In this document: positions 5,706 to 59,834 of the stretch, one piece after another | Numbering within the stretch: position 1 is the stretch's first letter | Layout of the letters: each line of letters begins with the position of its first letter | Source of the DNA: Branchiostoma floridae | Taxonomy: Eukaryota; Chordata; Leptocardii; Amphioxiformes; Branchiostomatidae | Length of the DNA: 64,000 nt | Assembly: GCF_000003815.2 (NCBI RefSeq) | Contig: NC_049989.1 | Location: 7,078,734-7,142,733, forward strand | Direction: 5' to 3' | Notes under the pieces: generated by a model | Databases searched by the model: none | What the model was told of the DNA's origin: nothing | The model's input: only the letters and a program-made list of their open reading frames with translations | Program-made: the position numbers and the translations under genes

Positions 5706-5944
5706 TTTTGTTTTCTCCTATGGGAAGACCACATAGGGATGAAGTACATACTGCATGGTTATAAAGAAAACATACTTTAAAAAATCTGAATCAAATGGTT
5801 TTGCTTCCATGAATCAACACAAATGCATTTCAACTTATCCTTTTAAAATTTTTTATTCTAATTTTACTGAAAATGGTATAGTACGTATCTTTATAAATAA
5901 TTTTCAGAATTGTGCGACATATGTGGACTTGTAAAGTTTCCATC
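5706..5944. promoter_or_regulatory. Bidirectional promoter between INTS2 and MED31
   Basis: Only 239 bp separate the two start codons, which face away from each other, so both 5' UTRs and core promoters must sit here or reach into the first exons. The stretch is AT-rich and I see no convincing TATA box at a sensible distance. Both products serve Pol II transcription (Integrator and Mediator), which makes shared control plausible, but that is inference. Confidence 0.6.
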
Positions 5945-11513: not shown

Positions 11514-11613
11514 NNNNNNNNNNNNNNNNNNNNNNNNNNNNNNNNNNNNNNNNNNNNNNNNNNNNNNNNNNNNNNNNNNNNNNNNNNNNNNNNNNNNNNN
11601 NNNNNNNNNNNNN
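11514..11613. other. Assembly gap (100 N)
   Basis: Exactly 100 N, a standard unknown-length placeholder. It hides the start of the Kelch-like gene. Confidence 0.99.
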
Positions 11614-11743
11614 TTGGAAGAATGCGCTAATGAAAGATGTTCGTGTGTAGTAATTAGATGAGAAAAAGTTAATTGGGTTTGTTGAACCTGGTTAGCATCT
11701 TGACACGTTTGCTTGCGCGAACTCTCGCCGTTTACGTAAGCAA

Positions 11744-11751
11744 TGACGTCA
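11744..11751. promoter_or_regulatory. CRE palindrome upstream of the Kelch-like gene
   Basis: TGACGTCA is a perfect full CRE/ATF site, about 230 bp (plus gap) upstream of the BTB frame on the minus strand. It is close enough to act as a promoter element; function is inferred from the motif only. Confidence 0.4.
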
Positions 11752-12259
11752 CTAGTAATAAGAGTGGATTCTCTATCTATTTTCGGACACCACATCAGGA
11801 GCTCATAATGTCACATTTACGCCTTGTTTTCACTTGACGATTGTAACTTTTTTTCCATAAAAGACGTAACTCTAGTGCAAGAGTCTGCAGCAAAGGAATG
11901 GCTCATTCCTCGAGTACATTGCGGTGCAATGCTGTAGTTATCAAAGGCTCACTACATACTCAAATCATGGTCAGGGACAACATTCACGTAACTCATACTG
12001 TATTTCAAAACAGCGGAGGCGGCTGTCAGCCACGAAGTGCCGACAAAAGGTCACATCCTGAGCCAAGTCCATGGACAATCAACATGAGTGATTGTTAACC
12101 TTTTCGACAAGGACCATCTCACGTATCGGGTTCCACTGCCTACGTCCATGCACCGTATCCATCATTCTTTAGTAGAGCCCTTTGTCACGACTTGCATGGG
12201 ACCGTTCAAAGTAAAACATACCGGAGGACTATCGAGAACTTTCCCCCTGAAGTTGGTAG

Positions 12260-27500: not shown

Positions 27501-30500
27501 CTGTGTGGCCCAAGGTCCATAGAAAAAGAGATAGGCACTGCTATATACACTTAAATGGTAGTGTGCAATATATTGGTGTTGTGATGCAAACTTTTCATAA
27601 ATTTATGTAGACAATGACACTGTCCTGCTCTTTTCAGTTAACAATGAACGACTTCAGCGTACACAGAATTATCGGCAGAGGTGGCTTTGGTGAAGTGTAT
27701 GGATGCCGTAAAGCAGACACAGGCAAAATGTAGGTGCACTGCTTTTGCCAGAACCATCATGCATGTTAAACTTAATTAATTTGACAAAAGTATGTACTTG
27801 TTAGAATGTGTGAGCAGAACATGTGAAAGATATTATAAACATCAATAAGGAGATTGTAAATGAAAGTTAATAAGTTTAACAGAAATTTGAAAAATTAACA
27901 AAATGTGCTGGAAAGAATAGAATAAAAGTGACCACAAGGAAATTTATAGTACTTGTTGCAAGACTACTCGTCAATGATTGTTTGGAATGAAGAGTTTCTT
28001 AAGATGATTTCTTTCCTTCTAGGTATGCAATGAAATGCCTGGACAAGAAGAGAATCAAAATGAAGCAGGGAGAGACACTGGCATTGAATGAGCGTATCAT
28101 GTTATCCTTAGTTAGTACGGGGGTGAGTACAAAACTGAAAAGATACATGCCACATGATTATCCTATATACGTATATCATAATGGTACTTGCATGATACAA
28201 TATTGACAACTTCTTCAATATGATTTTCTGTAATGTTAAACCAGTGGTGTTGCTTTAAGACTCTCCAGGCTGTACTACTATACATCTTTGTTTGCATTGT
28301 TACAGTAACTGTTGCACTAAAGGATTACCATTAGAATGAACCTAACCAAGCTTTAGCAATGGTTTACAATACACTTTGCCATTCCTTCCTCATTATTGTA
28401 GATGTCTTAATCATCCACAATATGTTTTGACTATCATGTGATGAGGTTTAATGTACGTATACATGTGCATTTGCTTCTGATCAATCATGGGGTCTCCCAG
28501 CTGTGGTACTATACTGCTAACCAGCCATTCTGGCATCCGCTTATTTTCCTTTCCTTGCTTTTCCTTGGGCTTCGGCAGATGGTAGGGCAGGTAGGACGAC
28601 CTAAGCAGATATTTCACAAGCACCAAAAGTACTAGCATAATATAGTGGAAGGAACAAACCCACATGTTAGCTGTGCTGCACATGTCTCATCATTTCTGTT
28701 GTGGTCTTTCTGCACTTTGTATAAATCTAAAGGAATGTTGAACTACCCAATGCATGCAAGGTTTGATAGGAGTGGGGGGAGGGTTAACAATTGCAATAGG
28801 AGGGCCAGTTTGCGTCAACACTTTGACTACCTTACCTCAAGTTACCTGTCATGTCTTGGGAGTATATATTAAGTAAGTGAATTACAAAGGCCACAGTATT
28901 CAATTTGTGAGGAGTTCACATTAAACGATTGGACCTTCTATCACTGGGACAAGGTTCCATGTCCCAAACTGCATATTTTTCAAATCACTTATTCAAAAAG
29001 TGATCATTATTTTTTTTCAAACATGTCATAATTTGTTCATTGATTTTGTACCAAGTGGGATGTACAAAATGTAGGTAACAGGTAACAGAAGGATATATGA
29101 GTTGTTCTGAACAGGATTTATTTGTTTGATGTTACAATAAGCAGGATGTTTTATAACATGCACCTGGTGTTTGGTATGCACTGCATGATCTGTCTGCTTG
29201 TCACTATTTATAAACATGTATACATTGTACATTGTATATAACCTTTTTGAATGTTTTATGGACATTGAATCTACTGTCTTGGATGCAGTAAACAACTTCA
29301 TTCAATTCATTGCCATTGACATCCATTCCAAAGCATTCTTTTGTGCAAACCCTTTTTAGCTGCAAACACCATGAATTCACTTCAAATTCTGGATATTAAA
29401 GAAAGGTTTCTGATGAAGAAAACCAGAAGGGAATCTTTTCTTTCCCTGCCACTCCTAAGCGTGCATTGATAATATTCCTCACCTTGTAACAACACACTTA
29501 ATTCTTTCCTTATGACTTACACCAGTTTCCTTGAAATGATTGATATTGTTTGTTTTCTTCCAAACTAATGTTTGTTTTCTTCCAAACAAGTACAAAATCC
29601 TGTCCTGTCCACCCCGAGATCAGTAGAGTAGTTCTGATGATGATTTGTGCCCCTACAGGCGGACTCCCCCTTCATAGTGTGCATGACATACGCATTCCAG
29701 ACTCCCGACAAATTGTGCTTCATTCTGGATCTTATGAATGGTAAACCTGCTCCTAGCTTCACTTGTTGCAATACAGATTTTGGGGCAAAAATACAAGAAA
29801 AAAATCTAGAAATAGAGTCACAGGCAGTCCTTCTTGTATATAGAATGTGTTATGATCATAAACATGTTTTGTTGTTGTTCTTTCGCTGAGTGAAGTTTCA
29901 TATTTCAGTAGAAATATATCATAAGTCTTCTTTATTTCTGCAGTAACTTCTGTAGTCAAAGAGGTGTATATATACATTTTTCATATTTGAGTAGACGTTT
30001 GAAATAGTAAGTGACCAAATTAGATGTATAACTTTATTGCACAACAATTGTACAAGGTATAAAGTATGGCATCTACATAACTACAGTTCTATAGCTTAAA
30101 TGTTAAGTGACTGATAGGCAGGGATAGGGCAGATTAGCTGAGAACATTGTCATCCTGTGTTGCTAGGCAGATTAGCTGAGAACATTGTCATCCTGTGTTG
30201 CTAGGCAGATTAGCTGAGAATATTGTCATCCTGTGTTGCTAGGCAGATTAGCTGAGAATATTGTCATCCTGTGTTGCTAGGCAGATTAGCTGAGAACCTT
30301 GTCATCCTGTGTTGCTAGGCAGATTAGCTGAGAACCTTGTCATCCTGTGTTGCTAGGCAGATTAGCTGAGAACCTTGTCATCCTGTGTTGCTAGGCAGAT
30401 TAGCTGAGAACCTTGTCATCCTGTGTTGCTAGGCAGATTAGCTGAGAACCTTGTCATCCTGTGTTGCTAGGCAGATTAGCTGAGAACATTGTTCTCCTGT

Positions 30501-33500
30501 GTTGCTAGGCGGAGACCTTCACTACCACCTGTCCCAGCATGGTGTCTTCACGGAGGGAGAGATGAAGTTCTACGCAGCAGAGATTATCCTGGGGTTAGAG
30601 CACATGCACAGCAGGAGCATCGTGTACAGGGATCTCAAGGTGACTCAGCACTACCCTTATGACCAGTTTCTATAGAAACTGGTCATAGAAGGCTATGTGA
30701 ATATAGAATATGCCCGAGGTACGGCCTGACCGCGGGTAGGATTGCCCAAAGGTCGGGGGGCAATCCAACCTGCAGGAGGGTCGGGACTGAGGGCGATACA
30801 GAACATCCCGTGTTGCATTTTATCTACATCATGGGCCATACCGTAAAATATGGACCTGTCGGAACACCAATATCAAACGTAAATACAGACCAGGTATGAT
30901 ATGACACTACGTACAAGCATGGTCCAATCAAACATTTAACACTGGCATGTTGTCTCTTCTTCCCAGCCTGCCAACATTCTGCTGGATGAACATGGACATG
31001 TCAGAATATCAGACCTGGGTCTGGCTTGTGACTTCTCCAAGAAGAAGCCCCATGCCAGCGTGTGAGTGCAACTTCATGTTCTATTCCATTGGGATAACTA
31101 ACATGAAGCCAAGGTTACCCAACTATCCAAAGGTTTTTGTGGACCTCTACTCTTTGAGGGGGCTCTGTTCCATGTTGGCCATCACACTCATATTCTCCTC
31201 GATATAAATTAATAATAAGAATTAAGCCCATGCCCAGAGGCTAATTGAAAGTACATGGTAGAAACATATGGAACATACATGTGACAATGAATAGTAAGAA
31301 GAGACTACTCAAATACTAGTGTTGGCTATTTCTAAACAGGTTGGGTTTGACTTCTTTTTTGGGAAGCAGAAGAAGACGAAAAGCACCACCATATAAGTGT
31401 AATGCGTTCATTAACAGGTTTAAACGCGGGACCAAAGTTCAACATTCCTTACTTTCTCTTCAAAGAGCTGCAAACACCTCATACCTGATTGTATAGGTCA
31501 GTTTGGGTACTTATTTGTAGAAATGTTGGCCAGTTACTCTCCCAGCAGAAAGGTGAATTATGACAGCTTGCTTTCTTAACGGAAGGGTATGAAGCAGCTG
31601 TTGTTTGATACCACCCTTGGTGCGTGTAAGGACTTCAGAGCATGAATGTGCGTGTTACGCTGCTTCCTAACAATGCCTGTTGTTTCCTCCCAGGGGTACT
31701 CACGGGTACATGGCTCCTGAAGTCTTGGCCAAGGGCCAGGCGTATGACTCGAGTGCAGACTGGTTCTCCCTGGGCTGTATGCTCTTTAAACTACTAAAAG
31801 GGTGAGTTGTAGTGCTAATGTGTTTGCCTAGCCTTGCTGTGCACTGTGTAAAGCTAATAGTCTTTCAGACAGGAGCACTGGGCACAGGTGTGTTAGCTCA
31901 AGTTGATGACTTTACATACAGGGAACATGGAAGGAAACCAATTACAAATTTATGTAACATTCACAGGGAAATGCACTAAAGATAATGATCATACCTGGTA
32001 GGAATGATGGCTGCATTTGGAATAAAAAGGCAACGTCTCCTTAGAGTAACAACTATCAGAATGATTCATAAAATAATTATGGAGAGATATGGAAAAATAA
32101 TGTAGTTTTTGATCAGCTCTTTTTTTCACATGAGGGATACTTTTCATATGATAATCCTTCCACAGATGTGGTAGATCTGATTTATGTTTTTTATACATGT
32201 CAATACTTTCTGCCTGTCATCAACAACTTGTCATCTATTATTGTTGTTAGCCAAGAAATTACAGTGTCTGCGACCACAATAATTGATTGCCTAACAAGAT
32301 ATAGACTGTCCACTCAGATTATGTTTTTTATGTAAAATTGACAAAATAGCTTTATTAGAAGAAGGAACAAACGAAATTTGAATGACCTTGACAATGAATA
32401 AGTTACACTTTTATTATTGACTTATAACTTTGTATAAATTGAAATTGTCTTCATTCATAGTTAAAGTATAAAAGACCTGTTTCTTCCAGATCACTTCAGT
32501 GTCACTGACGAAGGATAGTGGATTCTATCCGAAACGTCTGACCGTTTCCAAAACCATATCCAGTTGCTTGAGTAACTACTTTTTGGTGTATAACTTTGTA
32601 TGTTGTATTTTCTACAGACACAGCCCATTCCGACAGCACAAGACGAAAGACAAACACGAGATTGACAGGATGACCATGACCATGGTAAGGGTAAGCCACT
32701 GCACCTAATAGGTGTTGTCTAACATGGCTGTGATGTGGTTCAAGAGGACTTAAGTTACACCAACATGGCTCCAACTTACTGTCACAAAGTAAAAGTACCT
32801 ACTTGAACTTTTTCTTGGTTCTTGATAGTTTGAAGTCTACTGCAGGGCTTACACATGTATTATTACACGCAGTATGACCAGCCACAATGACAACAAGTTC
32901 ATTTATTTCCCACTGGTTTCTTGATCACAACTGCCTAATAACATTAAAAGACTTACTGCTTTGAGTCATCCAATTGGCCCAGTTACAGACAGATTTCATT
33001 GGGCAAGCTTATCAGCCAATCATATTGCCTCTTAACTGCAGGGCAATGTGATTGGTTAGTACATGAACTAGAATCTGTGGAGTACATTCTGATTGGCTGA
33101 CAGCAGTCCTGTTCTAAAGCTCTCAGATGGGTGGGTACCGTTGAAGGCTGTTTTACCAGGGTCGCTGCTTGTATATTGTGTAATACAAGCTGAAAGCTGT
33201 TAGGAAGGATGCTCCAACTCATACTAGGAAGTTTATTTTGGAGATTAAGAAGAAAATGCTGTTATCGAAATGATATGTTGTGATAATAATAAGCAATATG
33301 CAAATGTATATGCAAAGTAGTTGTGCCCATCAGTGAAAAGTATTATTTTTATGATTGTTCCGGATATCCATGAAGAATATTTTTGCTCACTCCAATATAT
33401 GATCTAATTTTCATTGTATTACTGTCTTTTTGATAATGACCAATTATAGTGATGACTGTTGATTGTTGTTATAACTGTAACGTTACATGTATTATGTATT

Positions 33501-34234
33501 TCATTACTGTTAGTACAACCAAACACAGCCAGGAACTTGCCTGGACTTCAAGCCCTTGGTCTATTACATTGTAGTTACTTTTCCTTTGCTGAAGTACCAT
33601 TGATATGTGTGAATTAGTGGAAGAAGGATTTTGAAAAGTATGATTTATCCTTTACCTTTTGATTATATTTATTATGTTGTATGAAGATACTTGACTCTAA
33701 AATTAATGAGTCTTTCTGAATCCACAATTATTATCTTTCAAAATCTCAAGTGACCAGCTGTTGATTTATAAGTTTGTTTTGTAAGAGCTTGAATGTTTGA
33801 TTGACACCTGTCACCCCAGGATGTGGACCTGCCCGACTCCTTATCCTCGGAGTGCAAGGAACTGCTGGGGGGTTTGCTCAAGAGAGATGTCAACGATAGG
33901 CTCGGCTGCCAAGGGAGAGGGTCAGTGATGGGAGGCTCTAAACAGGCTTCTCTTGGGGTGTAGAAGATGTTTAGATGACCATTCTGTAGAATAGTGTTCA
34001 AGTCCTCTGTAAAATACTTGACTTTGAAACTAGCAGCAGAAAATAGATGTAGCTGTAGGGATGTTTTCAAATGTACGAGGAGGCGATTGCATGCCTAAAA
34101 TTTGTATATATTTATACAATTGTATACAATATATGCTGTACCTTCCCCATACATTTCACCCTAAAAAAGATGACATTCTTATGCAGTTAAAGGCTGTAAA
34201 GATCTGAATCATCTTGTGTAACACTGAGTACTGT

Positions 34235-34270
<36 letters not shown>

Positions 34271-37200
34271 TGTACATGTAATAGCTAAAGAATATTTTCT
34301 GACGTGCAATTTACATGTATTTGACAGAGCTGAGGAGGTGAAGACACTGAGATTTTTCAAGGACATCGATTGGGCCAAAGTGTACCAACTCAAGGTGAGA
34401 CAGTTATTGTGTGCCGTAATGTATAATCATGACTACAATTTAAGCAAAGGGAACACATGTTAAAAACACATGTTAGAAACACAGTATTTAGGGCATTTGT
34501 GTATTGAAACATGTGACAATGTCATTATAGAAATTGCTAAACTTTCTTTCCAACACTAAATTAAACTATAAATTTCGAACAAACTCTGTCGACCTTGTTC
34601 ACAGAATGACCCTCTCTATCTCCAGCAGTGAGGTCAGGAACATGCCACTTTTGCAGGAGGGGGTCATAAGTATCAGAAAGTCTATGTCGCCCCCTGTCTC
34701 TGTTGAGTGTGGGCCGGTGGGCTCTAATGTACACTGCCTCCTTCACTCCTTGCGCGAAGAAATCCTGTTCTGAGTCTAGGATTTTGACAATGTCTTTGTG
34801 GTATGTTCTGTACAGTACCCCCCACCCCTGGTGCCCCCTCGGGGGGAGGTCAATGCTGCAGATGCCTTTGACATTGGGTCATTTGACGAGGAGGACACCA
34901 AAGGCATCAAACTAACGGAGGCTGATCAGGAGCTGTATAAGAACTTTCCACTGGTGGTGTCTGAGAGGTGGCAGCAGGAGATCGCTGGTCAGTGCAAGAT
35001 TGTTTTTCGATTTTCATATGCTGGAAGTTTTACCATTGTTTTCATCAAAAGTTACAGCAAAGTGCACTTCTAACCCAAATCAACAATCACTGTAAAGTTG
35101 TAGAAAATGTACTAGATTTATGTTGTTCCAAGACATCACTGTAATGAATCTGCCTTCGTCTCCAGAAACTGTATACGATGCAGTCAACACTGATGCTGAC
35201 AAGAACGAGGCCAAGAAACGGGCCAAGAAAATGATGGATGAGAAAGGTAAATCAATTGTTCAAAAGTTGTAATTTTTCCATCACTCTGTAGCTCATATTG
35301 CTTGTTTATTCTCTCATTTTCACAAAATGTCAATGCATGATAACTTAAGGTGACTTTGTGTTACACATGCCTTCTATCTTCACAAAAGACAGTAGTTTTC
35401 CCTATGGTGTTGTCTTACTATATGAACCTATCTAAACATAATTAATTGCATATCTGCATGCAATCCTTACATGTTCAAGCCTTTTTTCTAATTAGATGTA
35501 CTGTTGAATTTTTTCTTCCAGTTCATTCCAATGATGCTGAAGATGAGTGATGGAGGTCACTCAAAATGGCCTTAACCGAATCTTCATTTTTCTCCAGCTG
35601 TAGAGATTCAATTGTATTGGAGTATTGTTAACCGGGATGTGTAACCTTTATAAATGCATATGTCTTCTAATCTCTCAGAATATGCAGAGGGGAAAGACTG
35701 CATCATCCACGGCCACCTGCTGAAGCTAGGCGGCCCATTCCTGACCGCCTGGCAGAAGAGGTACTTCTGGCTCTTCCCTAACCGCCTGGAGTGGCAGGGG
35801 GAGGCCGAGAAAGGGGTAAGAGTCAAACCACATCGCAATGTCCTTTCTTGCTGTGTTACTATTTATTTGATTTTATATTGTTATCGATTATTGTTATGTA
35901 TGTACGGGGTTTCCCTCCAGAGATTTTTGAAAAAAGCCAACCAGGCCATATGTACCCCTGGATAAATAAAAATGAACAAACAAACAAACAAAATGTTCTT
36001 TATGTTACAATGATTATTAGACTCAGTATCATTGTAAATTGAACAAAGGGTTAGCTGTAAAAAGAAAATTCACTTAACAGTTTTCTGCACCTATTTCTAT
36101 ATTTTGCTGCTTCTTCAAGTTCACAATTAAAAACAAAAGTAGCAACGAAACAGAAATGTCTGCACCTGTTCAGATGATTTCAAGTACGAGAATATTTAGA
36201 GATTTACAGTAATCTTAACCATGAACATTAGGTTTGACTCTAGGTTGAAATATCAAGTTGGATGTTCTGGTCATGACATGAATGTATAATTGGTTACTTT
36301 TTGGTAGTCAACATTCACCCTGCACATAATTAGAGATGAATACTNNNNNNNNNNNNNNNNNNNNNNNNNNNNNNNNNNNNNNNNNNNNNNNNNNNNNNNN
36401 NNNNNNNNNNNNNNNNNNNNNNNNNNNNNNNNNNNNNNNNNNNNNNNNNNNNNNNNNNNNNNNNNNNNNNNNNNNNNNNNNNNNNNNNNNNNNNNNNNNN
36501 NNNNNNNNNNNNNNNNNNNNNNNNNNNNNNNNNNNNNNNNNNNNNNNNNNNNNNNNNNNNNNNNNNNNNNNNNNNNNNNNNNNNNNNNNNNNNNNNNNNN
36601 NNNNNNNNNNNNNNNNNNNTAATTTATGACTTGCTTTGACTTTTTGTGTATAATATACTCTATGGCTTTATTGTTGACAAGTAGACTGCTATTGTGTGGA
36701 TTGTGTATGACCCTTAATTTCTATGTCATTAAATGTAAAATTCAATATGCATAAATGAACATTAATTTTGGCTGTTTTATGTAAGATTCTGTTTTATGCT
36801 TTTCCAACACTGAGGAAATGATCTTGCAGGTACACACATTGTTGTAAATGTACACATTCTATGACATGCCATATCAGGTTCCAGTTTAGGAACATTCAAA
36901 ATTTTTTCTCCATCATTTTACAATTTCACGAATATTTGGCATGTTATGTTGATAAAAATCAATTCAACTTTAAACAACAATTATGCTTTTTTATTGCTGC
37001 CTATAAAAGAAAAGAAAAAGTATTCAATTTTTGCACAGATTGTACTCAACAAGGAGCCAAAATACATCTTCTGCACTCTGTAAATAAAAAAAACTTTTGA
37101 ACATGATACTGTAAGACTTTTCCTCATGTGAATTCCTGCTTCCCCTTGTACTTGTGATAATTTGCCATGTCCTGATTATTGTTTGTGCTGTGTGCTGTTA

Positions 37201-39961
37201 CTAAGGAGACAGGCAGAAGGAATACTTGTAGGAAGCTGCTCACCTCCCTTAGTAGGAAGCTGAGTAGGAGGTTTACTCAGTGTAGACATAGGAGACCTAT
37301 AGGACATGTAGGCTGGCTTCTGTTGTAACCTTTAGCATGCTGAGCAGGGTTCTAGCCAGCATCTGTCCTTTGACGGAATTTTGCAGCTGGGGACAAACAA
37401 AAATGTTGCCCATTCCGTCCTCAGAGTGATAGACAAAAATTGGCATGTAAAGATATTAAACAAAATGTACTTTTGCAGAAATTCAGCACAGATGCCATTG
37501 AACCAAGCTGACTCTACTCTACCTGCAAAATTTGCTCCTCAAAATGCAGGAAATAGCACTTCAGAGGGTCTTAGATTTCAACATTTTCCCCGACCCCTCT
37601 ATGACTGTTGTGTGGAAGCCTTTGGCACGAGACAGTATTTCCGTTCAAAATCCAGGGAACAGATAAAAATTTCAGGCTGGCTGGAACACTGATGCCAAAT
37701 AACCAGAGTGTAGCAGAACCAGCTTGACAGTTAACCACCAGCATGCTGTTATGGCATTTATCGTAATTAACTTTTACAATAGGCCATTACTAAAATCAAG
37801 AGAAAACAGTGAATGAAGTTAATGACCATGGACTGGTCCCCTCACTGCCATGGAGTTAACTGTTAAAAGTAAATTCCACGGACATGGAAGTCTTCAAACC
37901 ATGGTTTGGCGAAACATGTTCGCCATCAAAATTCGCTCACAGCTAGAGATAATACATGGTTTGGCGAAACATGTTCGCCATCAAAATTCGCTCACAGCTA
38001 GAGATAATACATTAAAGTAAGTGTTTGTAAGAAATAACTCATGCTACATGTAATTCCAAGATCTAATAAGAAATCCTAGAAATTGAAAAGATGTCACATT
38101 TGATGATGCTTTTCAGGGAGTGTTAGAGGGTGGTAAACATGTTGTGTGGCATTCTTATGCTATTGAATGACTCATACAATCAGGCATGCACAACTGCTAG
38201 TGATACATCCACTTGAGATATTCTCAAAACTAAGGCTGAAAAGGTACTGAATTGCGCATGTTCTTCATGTAGGGGTTAACTTAAAGCATTTTGCTGTGTT
38301 TTTACACCACAATTCCTTTCCACATGCAGATTTTATTCATGCATTTTACCCTTATTGACCCTTATGTCTATAATCATTTTCTCCTCAAATGTTTTTGTTT
38401 GTTCATCTTTTATATTTATTGAAATACCACAAATTTTCCTACCCCCCCTCCAAAAAAAGTTGCCTGTTTTTTTTTAAACATGAAAGTGTGACACAAAGTC
38501 TGCATGAAGTGGAAGGCTATGCCCTAACCAAGTCGTCTCTTCGTCTTTTCAGGATGTGGTTTTATTTCATTTTCAGGACGTCGTCCAACAGAATAATGTT
38601 TTAGTTCTTGAGTCTGTTTTGGCGGTGGAGGAGACGACAGTCAAGGGCAACAAGTGTATCCAGCTGAAGGTCAAGGGCGGGAAGCAGTTTCTCCTTCGTC
38701 CTGAGGTGAGTAGATAGCCTTTTGGTTAATGTTTGTCTGCAGAGTGACCTTCAGTTGTAGGTTGTGAAAGAATGACAACAAAAAGACATATAGCTCATTT
38801 AGGAATATCTGGTATGAAATATATAGTGTTCCGCATTTAAGCGAATGTTTTCCAGCTGGAGGCATTCTGTTCAAGTTCCCGTTCCCAGCTGCAAGCAAAA
38901 TCAGCAGTTTGGCCTGTAGGAAAGTGGTATTACATAAACTGTTAAAGTAGAAGTCAAACCCAACCTGTCTAGGTATACGTATAGCCAATGCTAGTGTAGT
39001 CTCTTTGTACAATTATGTTTATCACTGTTCATTGTCACATGTATGCCACCATGTTTCTAACATGTACTTGCAATTAACCTTCTGGCAAGAACTTGCAGAT
39101 ATTAAGTGAATTTTATTGATGACATCCACTGCAGACTGCAAAAATAGTGCGATAGGGCGAAAAAAAAAACAAGATGGGTGAAAAAACAAACAAGATGGCT
39201 ACATTTTCAAAAATAGGCACCATAAAGTTATGATGACTGCTGTAAAAAGAATTAAAGGGACAAAACATGATATCAGAGCCGACAAGGCATTCATTCCTGT
39301 ATTTAAGACAAGTCATGTAACGTTACTGGTGTGGTAAAAGTGACACTAGTGTGGTAGATTGCAATTGTCATCACCAACAAAGTTGGTAACCACACTCATA
39401 GCTTCCATATTGGTGTCACTTTTACAACTATCCAATAAGTTTCATTTCTACAACTACAGTTCTGGGTACCTCGCAAGTGTCACTTCTACAAGTACAATTA
39501 TTAGGCTACGACACAATATATTTGCTCATTTTGGTACTTCATCGTCATGTTGACCATCCCTGCAGAAGAAAAAAAATCTCTTTTTTTTCTGAAATCATGC
39601 AAAAATTAATGCGCATGCTGATGTCATCCATAAAATTTACTTGCTGTGGCTTAAACTAAACTTTCAGTAATACAGATGAGCACGTCCACTATATCCTTGA
39701 TATTTTTAAAGACCAAGCTGGACTACAGGGTTGATGTACATGTGTGTATGTACCTGTGATGTTGTACAACACCATCATGATCTTTGTACCCTACAGAGTG
39801 ACCCAGAGTTTGTCCAGTGGATGAAGGAGATAAAGGACGCCCTGATGGAGGCTCAGCGCGTCATGAGCATGGCGCCCAAACAGTTCGCTAAGTCCAGCTC
39901 CAGCTCTGCGTCTGACCTCGGGAAAGTCCCTCTGGCGCAGAGAAACAGCAACGGGAACTGA
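15528..39961 (+). CDS. GRK2: G protein-coupled receptor kinase 2/3 (beta-adrenergic receptor kinase)
   Basis: Cytosolic Ser/Thr kinase that phosphorylates active GPCRs and binds G-beta-gamma and lipid through its PH domain. Exons: 15528-15640, 15917-15993, 22154-22227, 25773-25874, 26425-26499, 26776-26837, 27207-27258, 27638-27729, 28023-28122, 29659-29740, 30509-30639, 30967-31061, 31694-31801, 32618-32684, 33820-33920, 34328-34394, 34816-34987, 35166-35246, 35679-35815, 38577-38705, 39797-39961. All phases match; 2082 nt give 693 residues (human GRK2 689). Order: N-terminal [23 protein letters not shown]-homology region (about 50-180), kinase with [10 protein letters not shown] at 198, YRDLKPAN, the GRK-typical DLG in place of DFG, MAPEVL, then PH domain (about 555-655) with [15 protein letters not shown]. 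It is a single pre-duplication type by inference, so GRK2 versus GRK3 is not resolved. Exon 20 has a second in-frame acceptor at 38551. Confidence 0.97.
16865..16996. mobile_element. Partial pogo/Tigger-like element (one end)
   Basis: It begins TA then CAGTCAAACCTGTATTAGCG and matches, in inverted orientation, the last 120 bp or so of the element ending at 19558, including the CCATAGTGGCCACTTTTTGT stretch. The other end is missing. Confidence 0.7.
17010..17025. repeat. Short CAAGGA hairpin
   Basis: CAAGGA-AAGC-TCCTTG, a 6-bp stem. A weak member of the CAAGGAG hairpin set. Confidence 0.5.
18239..18373. repeat. Imperfect (ACTC/ATTC)n microsatellite
   Basis: About 135 bp of four-base units ACTC and ATTC with occasional ACTT. 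It gives long Ser/His/Thr-rich frames that are not genes. Confidence 0.9.
18647..19558. mobile_element. pogo/Tigger-like non-autonomous DNA transposon, 912 bp
   Basis: It starts CAGTCAAACCTGTCTATAGC and ends GCTAATACAGGTTTGACTG, with TA on both flanks (18645-18646, 19559-19560). The sub-terminal regions repeat GCGGCCAC/GTGGCC words. No transposase frame is present. The assignment to pogo/Tigger rests on the CAGT...ACTG ends and TA duplication. Confidence 0.7.
19883..19917. repeat. Perfect 12-bp hairpin
   Basis: TTATGTAACCAC and GTGGTTACATAA around an 11-nt loop, in GRK2 intron 2. Origin unknown. Confidence 0.7.
23905..24055 (+). mobile_element. Possible second tRNA-derived SINE fragment
   Basis: CTTAGTGGTTAGTGCC resembles a Pol III A box, and GAGTTCAAATCC about 30 nt later resembles a B box. 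The tail is purine-rich. It lies directly upstream of the intact SINE. Confidence 0.4.
24076..24565 (+). mobile_element. tRNA-derived SINE with A and B boxes and poly-A tail
   Basis: The head GGGGCCGCGTAGCACAGTGG contains an A box (TAGCACAGTGG), and GGTTCGAATCC is a perfect B box. A body of about 400 bp follows, including CCCTTGGGAAAGGCACTTTA, and the element ends in a run of about 20 A. It would be transcribed by Pol III and moved by a partner LINE. No clear target duplication was seen. Confidence 0.85.
26107..26308. mobile_element. MITE with TACTGTAAATGCA ends
   Basis: Inverted termini TACTGTAAATGCA and TGCATTTACAGTA, with TA at the outer edge, enclose about 200 bp. The interior repeats TTTAAGTTTGCGGTAGC-type words and their complement. 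It lies in the GRK2 intron before exon 5. Confidence 0.75.
27128..27147. repeat. (TA)n microsatellite
   Basis: About ten TA units just upstream of GRK2 exon 7. Confidence 0.85.
28123..29658. other. GRK2 intron 9 (1.5 kb)
   Basis: No coding exon or clear mobile element. At 29548-29589 the 19-nt word TGTTTGTTTTCTTCCAAAC occurs twice in tandem. Confidence 0.7.
30129..30508 (+). repeat. Ten-copy 38-bp minisatellite ending at the exon 11 splice acceptor
   Basis: Ten exact-length 38-bp units start GCAGATTAGCTGAGAA and end TCCTGTGTTGCTAG. Copies differ mainly at one dinucleotide: CA in 1-2, TA in 3-4, CC in 5-9, and CA with an extra TCTC change in 10. The final AG of copy 10 is the acceptor used for GRK2 exon 11, so every unit carries a copy of that acceptor and its pyrimidine tract. 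Confidence 0.97.
30658..30687. repeat. Perfect 30-bp palindrome
   Basis: TATGACCAGTTTC, TATA, GAAACTGGTCATA: every base pairs. It begins 19 bp after GRK2 exon 11, in the intron. Confidence 0.85.
31802..32617. other. GRK2 intron 13
   Basis: No coding exon. It contains the hammerhead-like sequence at 32501. Confidence 0.7.
32501..32542 (+). ncRNA. Hammerhead-ribozyme-like motif, probably a retroelement remnant
   Basis: The order of parts fits a type I hammerhead: GTCA (helix I), CTGACGA (core CUGANGA), GGATAG...CTATCC (6-bp helix II with loop TGGATT), GAAA, then CGTC followed by TGAC, which pairs with GTCA. Helix III is almost absent, and one extra A precedes helix II, which is not canonical. 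Minimal hammerheads of this kind are known in Penelope-like elements and retrozymes. Activity is not shown. Confidence 0.4.
32685..33819. other. GRK2 intron 14 (1.1 kb)
   Basis: No coding exon or recognised repeat. Repeated GATTGG/CCAATCA words occur at 32998-33102. Confidence 0.6.
34239..34269. repeat. (AT)n microsatellite
   Basis: About 15 AT units, 58 bp upstream of GRK2 exon 16. Confidence 0.9.
36345..36619. other. Assembly gap (275 N) in GRK2 intron 19
   Basis: The non-round length suggests an estimated gap size. Flanking exons 19 and 20 join in phase, but a small alternative exon inside cannot be excluded. Confidence 0.99.
37345..37691. mobile_element. Diverged hAT-like MITE, relative of 2638-2939
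   Basis: It starts CAGGGTTCTAGCCAGC and ends GGCTGGCTGGAACACTG. It shares interior words with the copy at 2638, such as ATGTTGCCCATTCCGTCCTC and CTCAAAATGCAGGAAATA. The flanks match poorly, so the target duplication has decayed. Confidence 0.65.
37900..38009. repeat. Exact tandem duplication of a 55-bp unit
   Basis: Two identical copies of a unit beginning CATGGTTTGGCGAAACATGT; each contains the internal inverted pair GGCGAA/TTCGCC. Located in GRK2 intron 19. Confidence 0.9.
38546..38585 (+). promoter_or_regulatory. Duplicated 3' splice site of GRK2 exon 20
   Basis: TTTTCAGGATGTGGT and TTTTCAGGACGTCGT lie 24 nt apart. Using the upstream AG (38551-38552) instead of the downstream one (38575-38576) adds eight in-frame residues, DVVLFHFQ, before DVVQQN. 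Both options keep the PH domain open. The downstream site fits the phase and usual length better. Confidence 0.6.
39105..39650 (-). mobile_element. Harbinger-like MITE, copy 1 (one end decayed)
   Basis: About 546 bp, in reverse orientation to the 539-bp copy at 45601 and alike along its length. The right end reads GATGTCATCCATAAAATTTA then CTTGCTGTGGC followed by TTA; the left end is eroded to GAATTTTATTGATGACATCC. It lies in the last GRK2 intron. Confidence 0.75.
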
Positions 39962-43613: not shown

Positions 43614-45600
43614 AGAGTAGTCTGTCTCATTCACAACTGCCCTACTACTTAAGGACATAAAGTCGCGGGATCACCATGCTTACGTCATTTATCATGGTAC
43701 TTATACATCCTCATAAACACCCCGCCAAACAGCTGTATTTCCAGTCCAGGTCCTACCTCACACAACCACATGTCCTATACTGGGTTATTTGAACAGAATC
43801 AGACAGACATGGATGTGATATTTTGCACTATTTGCCTGTTCTTCACATCAGTACTTCTTGTAGTGTCTAGTGGCTTATTATTCCCTGCTCAAATTCTGTC
43901 CGATAGAACATGAAGAAAAGTATGTACTTTGGTTTAAGTTTGAGCCATAACATTTTTCTGATTTCTGTGCCATGATGAATTAAGATTAGATGTATTTTGC
44001 TGAAAACATGCAATAATGGTAGCCATAAGCTGGCAATGGGCATATTCCAGATTCTTAAGTTGGTAAACTGAAGCACCACTTTCTCCCAGACTTAATAGAA
44101 AGAATACTTAATTATGATCACTGGTTTTAGTTAATTCACAGCAGGGACTGAGGACCTGTTGGAAAGGGGGCAATATAGAAGACACTCCTGTACATAGGGG
44201 AAAAGACATCTGTACAGTTGACTATCTTGTCTTTAGTTGTGATGTAACACTGATGATGTGTTTGACATTGTTGCTTGTGTATACATGTTGTCTGCCATGC
44301 TCCGTGCCATTTCTGTCGCTGCAGTTGTGTACAGGACCAAAGTGAGACAAGTTTAAGTGATTCCTGTTGCTCCAATAGTACTAAAGAATTCTTATATGAA
44401 TAATTCTATTTGTTATGTTTTATTTTGGAGTAGGTGTAATTTTTGTGCTTGTAAGGGCAGAGTTGTCTGTATCATACTTTAAGTGTGCAGAGGGGATGGA
44501 AAGAATATCTCTTTAAGTCTAATGCTGGGTATGTATGTATACATAATTTAAGTCTGGTACCTGTAGGCAGGCAATAGATGTTGTTCCGTTCCTTTGATAA
44601 AGTAAATGTACTTCCCTGGTTCTATGGAGCTCGAGGGTCCAGCTAGGGTTTTGAGCAGTGATATGTTGGACAAGAGGCATGATGATGCTTCTGCCAATGA
44701 CTGTACCATATCTACATGTCTTTGTTAAAACTATGTCAAGTTTGACTGGAGGAATAAACTGTGTCTATGAGAAAAGAATTGTGTTATACTGTGAACTGAA
44801 ATTCATTCTAAACATTGCGTTTGTAGTTTTCATGCAGGTATCATATTCTGCTTGTAATATTTCAGAGAGGGGACACGTACAGTGTATAATTATGCAGAGT
44901 AAGTACACATGTAGAACTGACGAGAAGCAGTATTCAAGTTTCTGCCTTCACAGCAAGTAAAAGTGATTAGATTGACCAAGCTCACAATGTTGTGTCTCAC
45001 ATATTGATTCACAACCGTGCTACAAAAGCAAGCTCTCTTGACTCTCTGGCTCGTAAATGTTCCGAGGCTGTAACAAAGCTGATAACGTTATCCTTAAACC
45101 CGTTTAGACACTTTCCCCGTCTTCTACCAAGGGAAACTAGAAGGAACTTTGGTTCAAACAAGCTGGCTACTGCAACCAGAGCTCTTTATTACATGCTTGA
45201 AAAAAGCATGTACTGTTTCTGGTAGGGATCTTTGTGATTCCGGACCTATATCTTTAGAACCTCTGGATGGATTGCGATTTCCTTTGCTATGGGGATAGAG
45301 TGTGTGACCTATTGTGCTATTAAGTAGATTAGAAGTTTGCTGTTGTTTTGTGGTTCGTTTAAAAAAAAATTATTTACACCCCTTTTTGACAGGAGTAGGG
45401 TGGTCCCAGTAACTGATACCGTAACAGTAACTGATAAAGCATGCCAGCTGGGTAATTAGGCATCCGCTGGTGCGGGGTGAATCACTATATACACATTAGG
45501 GATATGAAGCTGATGGCTGCACAGATCCACAACTAGTAGAAAGAGTAACTGTGACTATCCCTGTCACCTCTGTATGGAACGAACCAGTATATACACATTA
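43614..45600. other. Gene-free stretch
   Basis: No exon supported. The frame at 44992-45225 shows no family motif. Contains the apparent empty site (45486-45506) for the Harbinger-like insertion. Confidence 0.4.
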
Positions 45601-46139
45601 GGCCACAGCAAGTAAATATTATGGATGACATCAGCGCGCGCATTAATTTTTGCCTGATTTCAGAAAAAAAAAAAGAATTTTTTTCTTCTGCAGGGATGGT
45701 CAACATGACGATAAAGTACCAAAATGAGCAAATATATTGTGTTATAGCCTGATAATTGTACTTGTAGAAGTGACACTTGCGAGGTACCCAGGACTGTAGT
45801 TGTAGAAGTGAAACTTATTGGATAATTGTAAAAGTGACACCAATATGGAAGCTATGAGTGTGGTTACCAACTTTGTTGGTGATGCAAGTCTACCACACTA
45901 GTGTCACTTTTACCACACCAGTACATGTCTTAAATACAGGAATGAATGCCTTGTTGGCTCTGATATCATGTTTTGTCCCTTTAATTCTTTTTACAACACT
46001 CATCACAACTTTATGGAGCCTATTTTTGAAAATGTAGCCATCTTGTTTTTTTTTTCACCCATCTTGTTTTTTTTCACCCTATCGCACTATTTTTGCAGTC
46101 TGCAGAGGATGTCATCCATAAAATTTACTTGCTGTGGCC
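45601..46139 (+). mobile_element. Harbinger-like MITE, intact copy with TTA target duplication
   Basis: 539 bp with inverted ends of about 35 bp starting GGCCACAGCAAGTAAAT. TTA flanks both sides (45598-45600 and 46140-46142); a 3-bp TWA duplication is typical of PIF/Harbinger. The interior has no transposase. The related copy is at 39105. Confidence 0.85.
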
Positions 46140-53725: not shown

Positions 53726-54684
53726 TTAAATCGGCATGTCAAACTCTAATTCGGGACTTTTACAGTCTATCGCGAGAGGTTTCGGAATCCGGGTGACGGG
53801 TGGTACCTTGGAGACCTCCATCTTTCCGTCTTTCTTGACGATGTTCACGTACGTCCCACTGGTTCCTATGAAGTTACCATCAGTGTTTATGTACAAGCCG
53901 CGAGTGTTAATGTAATTACCCTTCACGTTGATGTAAACACCATTCGTGTGTACGTAATTTCCGTTAGAGTGTAGACTGATGTTTATCTTACCATGAAGAG
54001 CCTTACGGAGGAGTTTCCGCAGGTCTTTATGCGTGGCGCTACTCGGGAGGACTCCGAACTGAATCAACAGAAATAAAAGGATGTCCTCCTCTGTTGACGA
54101 TAGCGAACTCATTGCGACGATTTTGTTTTGTTTGGCCGCCTGAGCGGTGGCCGGCCGGTCTAACAGTGAAAAGTTGTCCATGTCGAAGGAGTACGTTTCC
54201 CTGGCGACGCTTGACGCGCAGATGGTGTCTCGACGGCGTCTTGACGATGAGCCCGACGATCTCTCCTTGTGTTTTGCTTTCCTCCCTCTTTCGTCCGACC
54301 CCGCGCTGTCTGAGTAAGAATCTGCCGGTCTCTGTCGACTTTTCCTTCCTTTCCTTCTCCTCTTCTCATCGTCCGTGAGCGACAGGTCAGATATGCTGGA
54401 GCTGCTGAGAGATTCGAGCTCGACGGCGATGGGCAAGCTCAAAAACTCCTCGGGAACCTTTGCGATAATCAGAAATAAGAAGTCATTTATAAAACAATAA
54501 AAGTTATTTTCCACCATATGCTCAGTAGTTGCGTAAAATGAATGCATAGAGCTCTATAAATCTAGAATCTATAAGCTCCCATTTTCCACATTTTTGAATC
54601 TAAATGATAGTTACTGTGCCTTCTCCATGCATTCCTCGTACTTAAGTACATTCGCCAGAAGGTTATATTTGGGGCGTGTTTTTT

Positions 54685-54716
<32 letters not shown>

Positions 54717-55556
54717 AGCAGCATAACTCAAAAAGCCTTGGATGGATCCTGATGATATTTGGTAGGTGGGTAGGAGTTAGGAAAATTAATATCAAGTTCG
54801 ATAATGGGCTCCTTAGCGGCTTTTTAACTGCGTTTTTTATATCTCGCACTCTAGACATGCTATGGTCGTGCTCAGTTTAAGTGGTAGATAGCTCTTGTTT
54901 GTTACTGTCATACTTATACATCTTCTTCCGGACGTTCAACGTATAAGTCTTCCGAAATCATTCTCCGAGATACATTGTTACTCATTATTTGCATAGTTAT
55001 GTATCAAAGACAGTCTGTTTTGTTTTGTTTTGTTTAAAAAAACATCTAGGCTGTTTGATAACCATTTACAACAAAAAGTACATTTACCCAGCTTTGCCAG
55101 TGCACGCGGCAAGTGATTCTGTGCACATGTCTCGATACATATGACAGAGTCTATCATATAGAAGTGGCTATCTTCACCTTAGCTCTCAGCTTGGCCCAGT
55201 GATCGACCCTCCTAGATCTTCTTGCCTTGACAACAGGATCGTCAGAAGGCCAAAGCGAGAATCTGGAAGAGGTGGCGAGATTTGTGCTAGAACAAGCTAA
55301 TGCTCACCACATATCCGTGAAAAATGATCAATGATAACTGATAGTATTCGCATTACAAAGCTGACCAAAATTATGATTATTGTTTGAATATACGTATACA
55401 CTCTACAAGCTATGTAAAAATGAATACAGTGGGATACGACTCAAAATAAGCAGTGCCATCAAATACAGAGATTGCATTGATAGTCTGTTATATATATATA
55501 GATGTCCATTGTACTTACTTTTCCCGTCTAGGCCTTTCATCACGACGTCTGGACAT
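53726..55556 (-). CDS. Heptad-repeat protein A, 284 residues, unrecognised
   Basis: Three exons on the minus strand, 55556-55519, 55262-55178 and 54457-53726, join in phase (855 nt). Start MSRRRDERPRRE is the first ATG of the upstream exon, whose donor AA/GTAAGT matches the phase of the next. Residues 1-40 are very basic; 70-118 are a Lys/Arg/Ser-rich low-complexity block (EKRRRKGRKSRQR, SSSRRRR) that could be a nuclear-localisation or RS-like region. A predicted helical stretch follows (about 160-195, EEDILLFLLIQFGVL). Residues 206-247 are six exact seven-residue repeats such as KGNYINT and RGLYINT, with Gly at 207, 214, 221, 228, 235 and 242. After them come VKKDGK and an acidic tail. No signal peptide. 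The repeat is shared with the divergent gene at 57207. Family and function unknown. The last exon alone is certain; the first two rest on splice fit. Confidence 0.72.
54655..54860 (+). repeat. Dispersed repeat with (GTCT)n
   Basis: CCAGAAGGTTATATTTGGGG, then about eight GTCT units (54687-54715), CAGCATAACTCAAAAAG, GATGATATTTGGTAGGTGGG. A diverged copy is at 50120. Probably the end of a transposable element; class not clear. It lies in intron 2 of heptad-repeat gene A. Confidence 0.6.
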
Positions 55557-57206
55557 GTCTATAGATGGGTTCTCAAAGCGATGAATTCGGCAACATTAAG
55601 ACCAAATAGTCCAGACTTGATGTCCCACATCCTCAGGAATATTTTCGATTGAGGTCACCAATGCCAGAAAACCTCCATAAACCATCAGTTTCAGTTGTAT
55701 TCAGAAAAGCAACAGCTCTCAGTGGCTCCTCGCTGAGTACTGACCGAGGTTGCTACGCCGTCTGTTTGAGAAACAACACAGAAGACAGGCTGTGACTATG
55801 GTGATAACATAACAAAGTCATGTACAGTACTGTGCAGGCTATCCCAAAGAAGTGGCTTTCTCCAACTCAAGTCAATACATAAATAAACGATAGTGCACAC
55901 GCAGCTGATAAAGAAATACAAGATTGGAGTATCATTTTTCTTTAAGAGCAAGTGATTGCTAAAGAAGCCCCACCAAAATTGGGAATATACTCCGCCGGAT
56001 TGAAGTATAGATCCATAATTCATGATTTAGTACCCAAGCACAAAAGACACGTGTACTAAGAAAGGCTTGTTCGTGCACGACATGCTTTTCCAACAAAGGT
56101 TTTGCCGCAACAATTGATAAATCAAAGGCATAACTGGTTTCTATCGTGTAGAGTAGGTAATCGTACACCTCAACATATTTGTAGACAAAATCTTACGTTC
56201 TACAGATATATTGTTCAGTAGTAAACCTCTTTTCCTACCCAGTTCGATATAATTAATAATTCAAAGGGCCGTTTTGTCTTGGGATTGAATCATATACCCT
56301 TCCCTTGTGTTGACTGTCATGTTTTATAAAAGCCATGAATACATGAAAGTGGTAGATGAACAGGTTCTGAAGAAGCCTTTCAGCTTTTATCATTGCTTTG
56401 TCCGCAAGCTATTGATACAGGTGACAGGAGAGAATGATGTTATTCTTGGGCAGACCTGGCATGTTTGTCTCTCAGGATTTCCGGTGGATTCTTGCAAGAT
56501 TTTCTTCTGGTTTTCTTTCCGGAAAGCGATATTTGCCCCAAAAAAGTTATAAGAGAATTACCATTGTTGTAGAATGATACTATTAGAGACTAGAGGCCTT
56601 TACATGGATAACCTGTAATATGGGCCAGTCTAGCTTCCTGATTATATGATTGTTAAGCGTTCCTTAAAGTTGCATCTGCATTAAGATAGAACAAACTCCA
56701 CATAGAACAACCGAAATCTTTTATACTGCGCGCATCAACATGAATATACAATCATCTAAAATCTTCCGCTCACATGGGTGGGGGAATACTAATTCACCAT
56801 TGATGAAAAGAAGTGCTACTGCCAAAGCAGACCAAACAAAAATGCAATATTGCATTGACAATAAGTTCATTTTCATATCAATGGCTGCATAGTAACACAA
56901 GGTTTAGTCACGACAGGCCGTTCGTTTGCCATAAAATTCGTGATAGATCACTCAAGGTTCTTCGCAGAGGGTTATGGGATCGAACTGAGCAAGCCAAATC
57001 CAACTGCATAGCAACCAGGTTGCTAGGCGACGCCTTGGATAAGACGCCGTGCAGCACCCATCGGAGACCATTCCCAGACCTGACCTCCGGGAAGCATCAG
57101 CCAAGGCGAGAACTCCCGACTACTGACCAGACAGTTGTAAGAACTGTGGGTTGACAATCGGCTGCACCGTCAAGACTTCTGCCTGTGATATCACTCCAGA
57201 ATCATC
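55557..57206. other. Shared upstream region of the divergent heptad-repeat genes
   Basis: 1.65 kb between the two start codons. No coding exon supported. The X-box-like site at 57010 is near the plus-strand gene; I found no comparable site next to the minus-strand start. Untranslated first exons could lie here. Confidence 0.5.
57010..57031. promoter_or_regulatory. RFX X-box-like site upstream of heptad-repeat gene B
   Basis: AGCAACC-A-GGTTGCT (57010-57024) is a perfect palindrome of X-box half sites. The overlapping GTTGCTAGGCGAC (57019-57031) fits GTNRCC-N-RGYAAC with one mismatch. It is about 180 bp upstream of the ATG. RFX sites of this type mark many ciliary genes; the link here is inference. 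Confidence 0.4.
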
Positions 57207-59834
57207 ATGACTGACTACACTCTCATCCACCCCAAGCACAGGTAAACTCCCTCCATTATATTTATGGTCTTCAGGAAGTGAGAAGAAAGCAATACCCTGG
57301 GCTCTAGTTAAGGTAGAATCCTGTTGCTTTGGCTTTGTTATCAACGTTAGAATAACCTTTTGGAGAATTACATAGATTATTAATAGGAATTGAGAAGTCT
57401 GTAAGATATGAATTTGTGAATTTGGCCTACGGAGGATCTAGAAGGCGATTGTAGGCTGGTAAACGAAAATATATATGTATAAGACATCCACATCTCTGTT
57501 TGTCAATATACATATAGTTTCCCTGGCAACACATTGCAACATACACAGTTGCACCGATCTAGTCCTCTAAACTCATTCAATTGTATTAAACTTTTCTTAA
57601 GATCGTTATAGTATATTAATGCCTTTCCATTAGAATATGTGTTTCCATGAATCAATATAGCCATAGATATATTTTGGTTTCAAATCTTCGTTTAAATTCT
57701 ATAATGTGACAAATTATAAATCCAGTGTGAAATTGTTTTTCAGCTGGCAATGCTGGCCCAGCCATGGTCATGGACACAGCGGTAGTGATGGCAAACTGCA
57801 GCACACGGTAAGTACAGCATTACCATTCCTAGCAAAAAAATTAACATAAGGTCCTTAACACTGACAAATACGCTTACAGTATAATAGCCGTACATCCCTA
57901 GCAGCTACATGCCAATACGATGCTGTAAAACATTCGGAGAATGCTAGTTGTCAAAATAAGATTCCGCAATGTTTAGATCTGAAAACAGATTGATGGAGGC
58001 TTCCCAGCGTATCATGTAGTAGAAAAATTAGAATTTTTAAAGGAAATGCAAAGTTCCAAGAAAAGATATGTTTTATGCTGTTTCTGCGTATAAAAGTCAA
58101 AACCCATGCTTTATAAATGAAGATAGTAAAGCGGTACGTTGCTGAGGACGCCGTATCCATGGAGACAGTATTGTTGTATGTGGGAAGACCCTATGTTCAA
58201 AATGATGGTGTAATGAAATATGAGCGTGTGAACTCTTTACTGTCCTGTTGTTCTCAAACAATACGTATCCAGGCGGCCTGTCATGCCCAATCATTGAGCA
58301 GTATTAATATAAATAAATTTTATCGACAATACTGTTTTATGATTAGCGTATGTTGTTATTCACTTTGTTGCAATTGAAAAATGAAATGAAATCAATATCC
58401 TAGTTATTTCATATATTTAGATTTTTTTGTTTACGCTACTTAACCCCCCACTGTTACAATATTTTTTATTCATGTCTGACATGTTATTGATGTTACAGGG
58501 GTCAAGCTTCAGGTTTGGTGGCGGCGGCCGTGAGGTTGAAGCACTTGAGGATTTCCACAAAGGTAAGTGTCAAACCCCGTGTACTTCTAACCGTACCTTC
58601 CCTCCACATTAGATCTGTAACAATTCCTTTGTAAATATTCGATTTCGTCTTTAGGATGCAGGAAATATAGGGAACCGAACTCTTGCCTCTTAAAATTGAG
58701 ACGAACATGCTTTAAAATTCAGATGAAGACACGGACAAGGCAGTTATAACTATCACATGCACATGTGGTCTTGCACATGTATATTGGTGACATACGCCAC
58801 TTCACCAATCGATTCTTAGCTGAACAAATTGACATAGAGTAGGAGGAAATACGCATTGTTTTAGGTTTTCTGTACCCTGGACAAGGGTTTACTGAAGTTG
58901 CCGAGCTTACATTGTGATGATATTTGAAATGTGAATCCCAAAGATGTACGTTGTATATTGACCTAATCATAGGGCCTGTCCTTGGTACTGAAATGAATTT
59001 CTGGGTTTGATATCCTCAGTTCTCGACAAGCCTTGTGTGTTTTTTGTGTGTGTTGGAAAAAGTGTTGACTTTGGGTCCCCTAGCGGTTTGTTCCCATGCT
59101 AATGGACATACTATCCTTACAGAGAAACACCACAAGTGGCCAGTGGCGGTGTCCTGGCAGTATAAGAACGGCACAGTGACTGGCATCAACAACGAGACCT
59201 TCTCCGAGTTGGTCATCCAGGAGTCCCGTGGTAACAAGAAGCTCCGCGGACAGAACAACTTCTACAACACCACGGGCAACTACTTCAATGCCTCAGGTAT
59301 ATATCAATGTTGAATGGGCGTACTCTGTGACTTGATTTTGGCTAAAAAAATGTTAGACTCAATGCAGTGGCTATCTATGGACTGGAACGTATAAAAGTCA
59401 GAAAGCTCAGCAAAGTATTGAATCTCTGTCAACCAGATGACTAAAACACCCACGCCACCATTTTCATCAACGACTAGGAACACTTGCAGATGTGAACACT
59501 TTAGTGATTGCTTTGCATGTATTCAAACAAACAGAATCGAAAACGCCCTTTATCTGCTACAACACAGTTTTTGTTGTTGGCATCCTATATAACCCTCATT
59601 ACTCTTCCAGGTAATTTCGCTAAGACATCGGGCAACTACTACCACGCAGCCGGCACCTACGCCAACACCACCGGCAACTTCTTCCACACTTCTGGCAACT
59701 TCTTCAACGTCCTGCCCAAGAAGAACAACGAGGGCGGACAGCTCGGGGCAGGAGGGTCGGTGGACTCCAACGCGCCGGCCCTGACTAACGGGGGTGGCGC
59801 CGGCGGTGCCAGGGGAGGCGGTGGCTGCTGCTAG
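57207..59834 (+). CDS. Heptad-repeat protein B, 186 residues, Cys-Cys C-terminus, unrecognised
   Basis: Exons 57207-57241, 57744-57807, 58499-58562, 59123-59296 and 59611-59834 join in phase (561 nt). Start MTDYTLIHPKHS is the first ATG in an exon whose donor phase fits. Residues 13-45 are Gly/His-rich (SHGHGHSGSDG, FRFGGGG). Residues 58-95 form a Trp-containing segment, WPVAVSWQYKNGTVTG. Residues 105-146 are six exact heptads such as TGNYFNA, SGNYYHA and TGNFFHT, with Gly at 106, 113, 120, 127, 134 and 141. A degenerate seventh (QNNFYNT) precedes them. LPKKN follows, then a Gly-rich tail ending GGGGCC. There is no signal peptide, so the terminal Cys pair could be lipidated (palmitoyl or geranylgeranyl) in the cytosol; this is inference. 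One intron splits the repeat array after the first canonical unit. It is divergent from gene A, with which it shares the array. No family recognised. Confidence 0.8.

Follow-up and report, generated by a model that had tools for sequence, protein, structure and literature searches.

Why do two neighbouring genes of the chordate Branchiostoma floridae, alike in little else, carry the same array of seven-residue repeats? The genes, here called A and B, lie in a stretch of 64,000 nucleotides (contig NC_049989.1 of assembly GCF_000003815.2, positions 7,078,734 to 7,142,733), which is referred to as the window and in whose numbering coordinates are given. Our analysis found no named family that matches the heptad module in the libraries searched, and the module was found to be confined to A and B among the matches in this assembly. 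The pair is real and clearly delimited, and has no name in those libraries. We tentatively explain it, with a probability of about 0.45, by the local duplication, in inverted orientation, of an association module that is an orphan and probably rich in beta structure, with A basic and Ser/Arg-rich and B possibly lipid-anchored.

Two divergent genes and their common heptad unit

The models of A (284 aa) and B (186 aa), including their start codons and splices, were read from the sequence. All six introns are GT-AG and each frame stays open up to one terminal stop. A preliminary reading, made from the letters alone and called here the sequence-only reading, had named three of the joins (55519/55262, 55178/54457 and 57241/57744), and these, like the three further ones, can be read as GT-AG joins that keep the frame open. 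It had also placed the genes head to head at a distance of 1.65 kb; the genes are divergent and the gap from ATG to ATG is 1,650 bp. A scan of this intergenic stretch for promoters and terminators of bacterial type, a scan not designed for animals, stayed at chance level. In both genes the first two introns have phases 2 and then 0.

The array of A (residues 200-248) reads NISLHSN GNYVHTN GVYINVK GNYINTR GLYINTD GNFIGTS GTYVNIV and that of B (residues 99-147) reads NNFYNTT GNYFNAS GNFAKTS GNYYHAA GTYANTT GNFFHTS GNFFNVL. Six canonical heptads per gene with Gly at period 7 had been described before, and six are present; numbered from the Gly they occupy residues 207-248 of A and 106-147 of B, the earlier limits (206-247 and 105-146) beginning one residue before the Gly. 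The basic patch reported after each array is likewise there, as VKK in A and LPKK in B. The earlier extent of the common unit was too short, however, as an extra degenerate heptad (NISLHSN or NNFYNTT) and a K-x-L-x-G lead-in precede the six. The shared unit thus runs from the lead-in through the degenerate heptad and the six canonical ones to a basic cap.

The periodicity is strong within each protein: identity at a lag of seven residues is 17/42 in A and 15/42 in B, values that 100,000 random reorderings of the same residues reached 0 and 2 times, respectively. Between the proteins, BLASTP aligned residues 192-250 of A with 92-149 of B (23 identities in 59 positions; E 2e-10, the value for one single pairwise comparison, of a kind that low-complexity repeats may inflate). 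The alignment starts ahead of the array, at RKALHGKIN in A and NKKLRGQNN in B, and stops in the basic patch. Aligned end to end, the arrays are identical at 19 of 49 residues (39 %).

No further heptad array was found in the window by a six-frame scan with a position-specific scoring matrix. The top 13 three-heptad stretches lay within or overlapped the two arrays, with scores of 26 to 58, and the 14th (4.5) overlapped the array of B again, while the top score elsewhere in the window was 4.2; five Markov sequences gave top scores, one each, of 4 to 12. The matrix was built from the arrays of A and B, and the scan therefore speaks on the absence of others and not on independent significance.

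Distribution of the module and turnover of its codons

The whole assembly (513,431,437 bases in 431 contigs) was searched at E<=10 with the array of A and the array of B as protein queries, the counts of matches being lower bounds. At least 14 matches were obtained with the array of A, two of which were A itself (1.2e-36) and B (8.8e-4), and at least 15 with the array of B, three rows of which were A and B. In each search the other 12 rows had tandem repeats at the match, with a best E value of 0.006 for the query from A and of 0.05 for that from B (repeat periods of 20 to 84 in the latter case); these 24 rows, some of them co-located, were dropped as tandem-repeat DNA. The searches also covered the upstream 200 kb of the contig, and in its downstream 200 kb nothing exceeded a reversed-sequence control. 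The helical stretch of A ahead of the array had one match in the genome, namely itself.

Could the arrays themselves be recent 21-bp minisatellites that form open reading frames by chance? Tandem repeats of 21 bp abound in the genome, and Tandem Repeats Finder (TRF) reported a single row of 2.0 copies (85 % matches) in B. However, two copies are all that TRF reported in B and it reported no array in A, and by TRF and codon comparison neither array consists of near-identical 21-bp copies. Comparison of identical residues showed a change of codon in 26 of 49 pairs inside A, in 24 of 62 inside B and in 60 of 115 across the two arrays. As 39-53 % of the repeated residues differ in codon, the pattern has been kept as protein, and the module is retained as protein, not as DNA. 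Both arrays also sit in the spliced frames of two genes and have one residue pattern in common, and we find a minisatellite origin barely credible. Elsewhere in the genome, 21-bp tandem repeats at eight other loci translate into heptad proteins, in some cases within open frames 205 to 398 codons long, and such loci are a trap in searches for repeat proteins.

Searches of family libraries were negative at their cut-offs. No Pfam model scored above cut-off on whole A and B or on pieces of them. The best was DUF6944 on the array of B (E 0.0058, 16.4 of 32 bits), and DUF4106 on the array of A gave E 0.019 (14.7 of 27 bits); membership of either family was rejected, as both scores lie under the Pfam gathering cut-offs. 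With pieces of A and B as queries, the best E value was 0.059 in NCBIfam, under cut-off, and 0.001 in PHROGs, where no stretch was significant alone. Among PDB sequences, single-sequence searches gave nothing for B and one row for A (E 1.5). A two-row profile of A and B gave 10 matches at E<=10, of which seven (E 0.0012-0.0082) were RPB1 sequences with their heptads of the C-terminal domain (CTD), none with a single stretch significant alone.

Viral and prokaryotic genome collections, searched with two queries each by a peptide-pattern method that detects close relatives, gave 152, 63, 68 and 3 stretches, none of which was confirmed by tblastn at E<=1e-3. Phages, searched with whole B only, gave no match. 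In plasmids, a piece of A matched 36 records (best E 0.07 among the best 20 of the 36) and the array of B one record (E 0.08). Titles and abstract openings of the literature matches listed held no description of the heptad repeat of A and B. The module may instead be a known animal domain with a function established elsewhere and missing from the libraries searched, which were limited to Pfam, NCBIfam, PHROGs and PDB sequences; the lack of any Pfam model over cut-off speaks against this, and we consider it unlikely.

Proposed origin, fold and association of the module

We propose that A and B go back to a single duplication, local and inverted, of a gene or exon block that carried a module of fixed length, about 57 residues (the K-x-L-x-G lead-in, seven heptads of the form [GN]-N-[YF]-x-[NH]-[TA]-x, and the basic cap). 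On the most parsimonious reading, the duplication would have left one conserved module, the rest of both genes being fast-changing. The adjacent head-to-head position and the phases of 2 and 0 in both genes fit local duplication. The equal number of heptads, the similar ends and the codon turnover together argue for a folded protein module, and the spacing of Gly, at every seventh residue with aromatic and beta-branched ones in the intervals, agrees with short strands and tight turns. The module would most likely fold as a small Gly-turn beta structure, perhaps with two seven-residue strands per 14-residue coil and hence 3.5 coils. A private module in two neighbours seems best explained by self- or cross-association, and the module would most likely offer a surface through which A and B self-associate or bind one another.

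The two partners would differ in their surroundings. A has a basic Ser/Arg-rich half, which suggests a nuclear or RNA-linked role. Cys-Cys ends are reminiscent of the tails of lipid-anchored Rab proteins, and by analogy B is possibly lipid-anchored through its terminal Cys-Cys, which would hold it at a membrane.

Several findings weigh against the duplication of a folded module. In B the array is interrupted by a phase-1 intron, which splits it at a Gly codon, whereas the array of A has no intron. Alignments of the two arrays shifted by whole heptads agree about as well as the unshifted one (39 %), namely at 29-46 % with 28-42 residues compared and for most offsets with at least 20, so that the register is not proved, although the unshifted register appears likely. 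With the array of A as query, B (8.8e-4) ranks not far above a minisatellite (0.006), which leaves little margin over repeat DNA in that direction. The parts ahead of the module align at chance level: their best local score is 26.0 against a shuffle mean of 26.3, and 250 of 500 shuffles reach it. For these parts the proteins are indeed unlike, as had been claimed for everything outside the arrays, but the claim sits less well with the common phases of 2 and 0 and with a WPS tripeptide found in both proteins 4-6 codons past the first junction codon; the post-array parts were compared only inside the whole-protein BLASTP. The N-terminal similarity around WPS is weak, as its score was equalled or exceeded 163 times when the first 45 residues of B were shuffled 2,000 times, and full-length paralogy is consequently at most suggested by this similarity and the intron phases.

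A further point against it is that structure prediction gave no confident model. AlphaFold2 gave a mean predicted local distance difference test (pLDDT) of 43.1 for the last 139 residues of A as a single sequence, with the array unresolved and two helices ahead of it (fragment residues 17-29 and 39-50). With the array of B encoded by exon 5 as a second row, the array of A gave a mean of 42.0, with short strands in its second half. Both models, from an input of one or two sequences, show low-confidence strands only and no solenoid. Of the sequence-only interpretation, the coding arrays common to a divergent pair stood, as did the statement that they belong to no named domain, checked in the four libraries above; its beta-solenoid with Asn/Thr ladders is a conjecture on which the two low-confidence models weigh in neither direction.

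These values of about 42 would fit arrays that are disordered, low-complexity Gly/Asn/Tyr/Thr repeats of the sticker-and-spacer kind, without a fixed fold, and the RPB1 CTD heptads at the top of the two-row PDB search (E 0.0012), non-significant as single stretches, point the same way. However, with an input this small a low pLDDT carries no information, A and B have equal heptad counts and a degenerate first unit each, and position 4 is I or V in 6/6 canonical heptads of A. Disorder is, in our judgement, a possible explanation at rather less than even odds, and we continue to prefer a duplicated, beta-rich association module.

A small repeat module that was found in no more than a single pair of neighbouring genes across an animal genome offers an easily tested case, with a single locus, a pair of short proteins and one interaction to expect. 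Should the heptads fold, the beta folds built of short repeats would gain a heptad class; should they mediate binding between A and B, the pair would show a private interaction domain spreading through local duplication.

Locus features and known systems

The coordinates of the features of A and B are collected in Table 1.

Table 1. Features of genes A and B in the window
Feature	Position	Strand	Description
Gene A	53726..55556	-	exons 55556-55519, 55262-55178, 54457-53726; GT-AG joins, open frame
Heptad array of A	53837..53983	-	degenerate heptad and six canonical heptads
Lead-in LRKALHGKI of A	53984..54010	-	counterpart in B NKKLRGQ, from the BLASTP alignment
Two predicted helices of A, before the array	53996..54097	-	residues 162-174 and 184-195; block pLDDT 56-75
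Inter-ATG stretch	55557..57206		1,650 bp; candidate shared promoter region, from coordinates
Gene B	57207..59834	+	exons 57207-57241, 57744-57807, 58499-58562, 59123-59296, 59611-59834; GT-AG joins, open frame
Heptad array of B, first part	59254..59296	+	NNFYNTT (degenerate), GNYFNAS and the first base of the following Gly codon
Heptad array of B, second part	59611..59714	+	remaining five canonical heptads
Tail RGGGGCC of B, Cys-Cys end	59811..59831	+	possible lipid attachment, from the sequence

Elsewhere in the window, exons of Integrator complex subunit 2 were found on the reverse strand at 1813-5717 (Pfam INTS2, E 2.6e-30 and 1.6e-13). A 701-codon open frame on the same strand (9705-11810), which contains a run of N at 11514-11613, has by eye what we take to be a BTB-Kelch look. 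On the forward strand, at about 30484-39958, lie an exon of a protein kinase (E 1e-11) and one of a PH domain, the latter slightly under cut-off, which look like pieces of a GRK2/3-type G-protein-coupled receptor kinase; the kinase exon is adjoined by a 38-bp tandem repeat of 10.1 copies with 98 % matches (30128-30510). The arms of an inverted repeat (39104-39654 and 45598-46130) are 84 to 96 % complementary and about 6 to 7 kb apart, and are perhaps copies of a mobile element. A weak tRNA match at 24078-24149 on the forward strand (29.7 bits, barely over the Rfam cut-off and uncalled by ARAGORN) is perhaps a tRNA-derived element.

Several known systems invite comparison with A and B. The arrays resemble the RNA polymerase II CTD in their period of 7 and in their Tyr and Thr/Ser, but they lack Pro altogether and have Gly and hydrophobic residues. 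Identity with the RPB1 CTD was rejected, as the arrays do not hold YSPTSPS heptads and the matched stretches are not significant alone. The YadA head is an example of a narrow beta-solenoid, built of 14-residue coils of two short strands, and such a coil would fit 2 x 7 residues of A and B; however, no sequence relation was found to A or B, whose fold has no confident prediction. A RHIM was rejected as well: its core is [IV]-Q-[IVL]-G, and by eye no such core is present in A or B, although A has a near-match, IQFG, where one of its predicted helices ends.

A parallel in layout is offered by fungal NWD2 and HET-S, for which PMC3321046 describes adjacent genes with a short repeat in common and proposes amyloid templating. 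A and B are likewise adjacent, share a short Asn/Gly-rich repeat and differ elsewhere, and by analogous logic their repeat could act as a functional amyloid, with one protein nucleating its partner. On the other hand, the period of A and B is 7, unlike the triangular motif of HET-s, and neither protein has a STAND/NACHT or effector Pfam match at E<=1, and such templating is in our view very unlikely. Its most specific form, a long shot, would make A and B an animal counterpart of these templating pairs: divergent genes with a private, fixed-length beta module of seven heptads, by which a membrane-anchored B and a basic, probably nuclear A would co-assemble.

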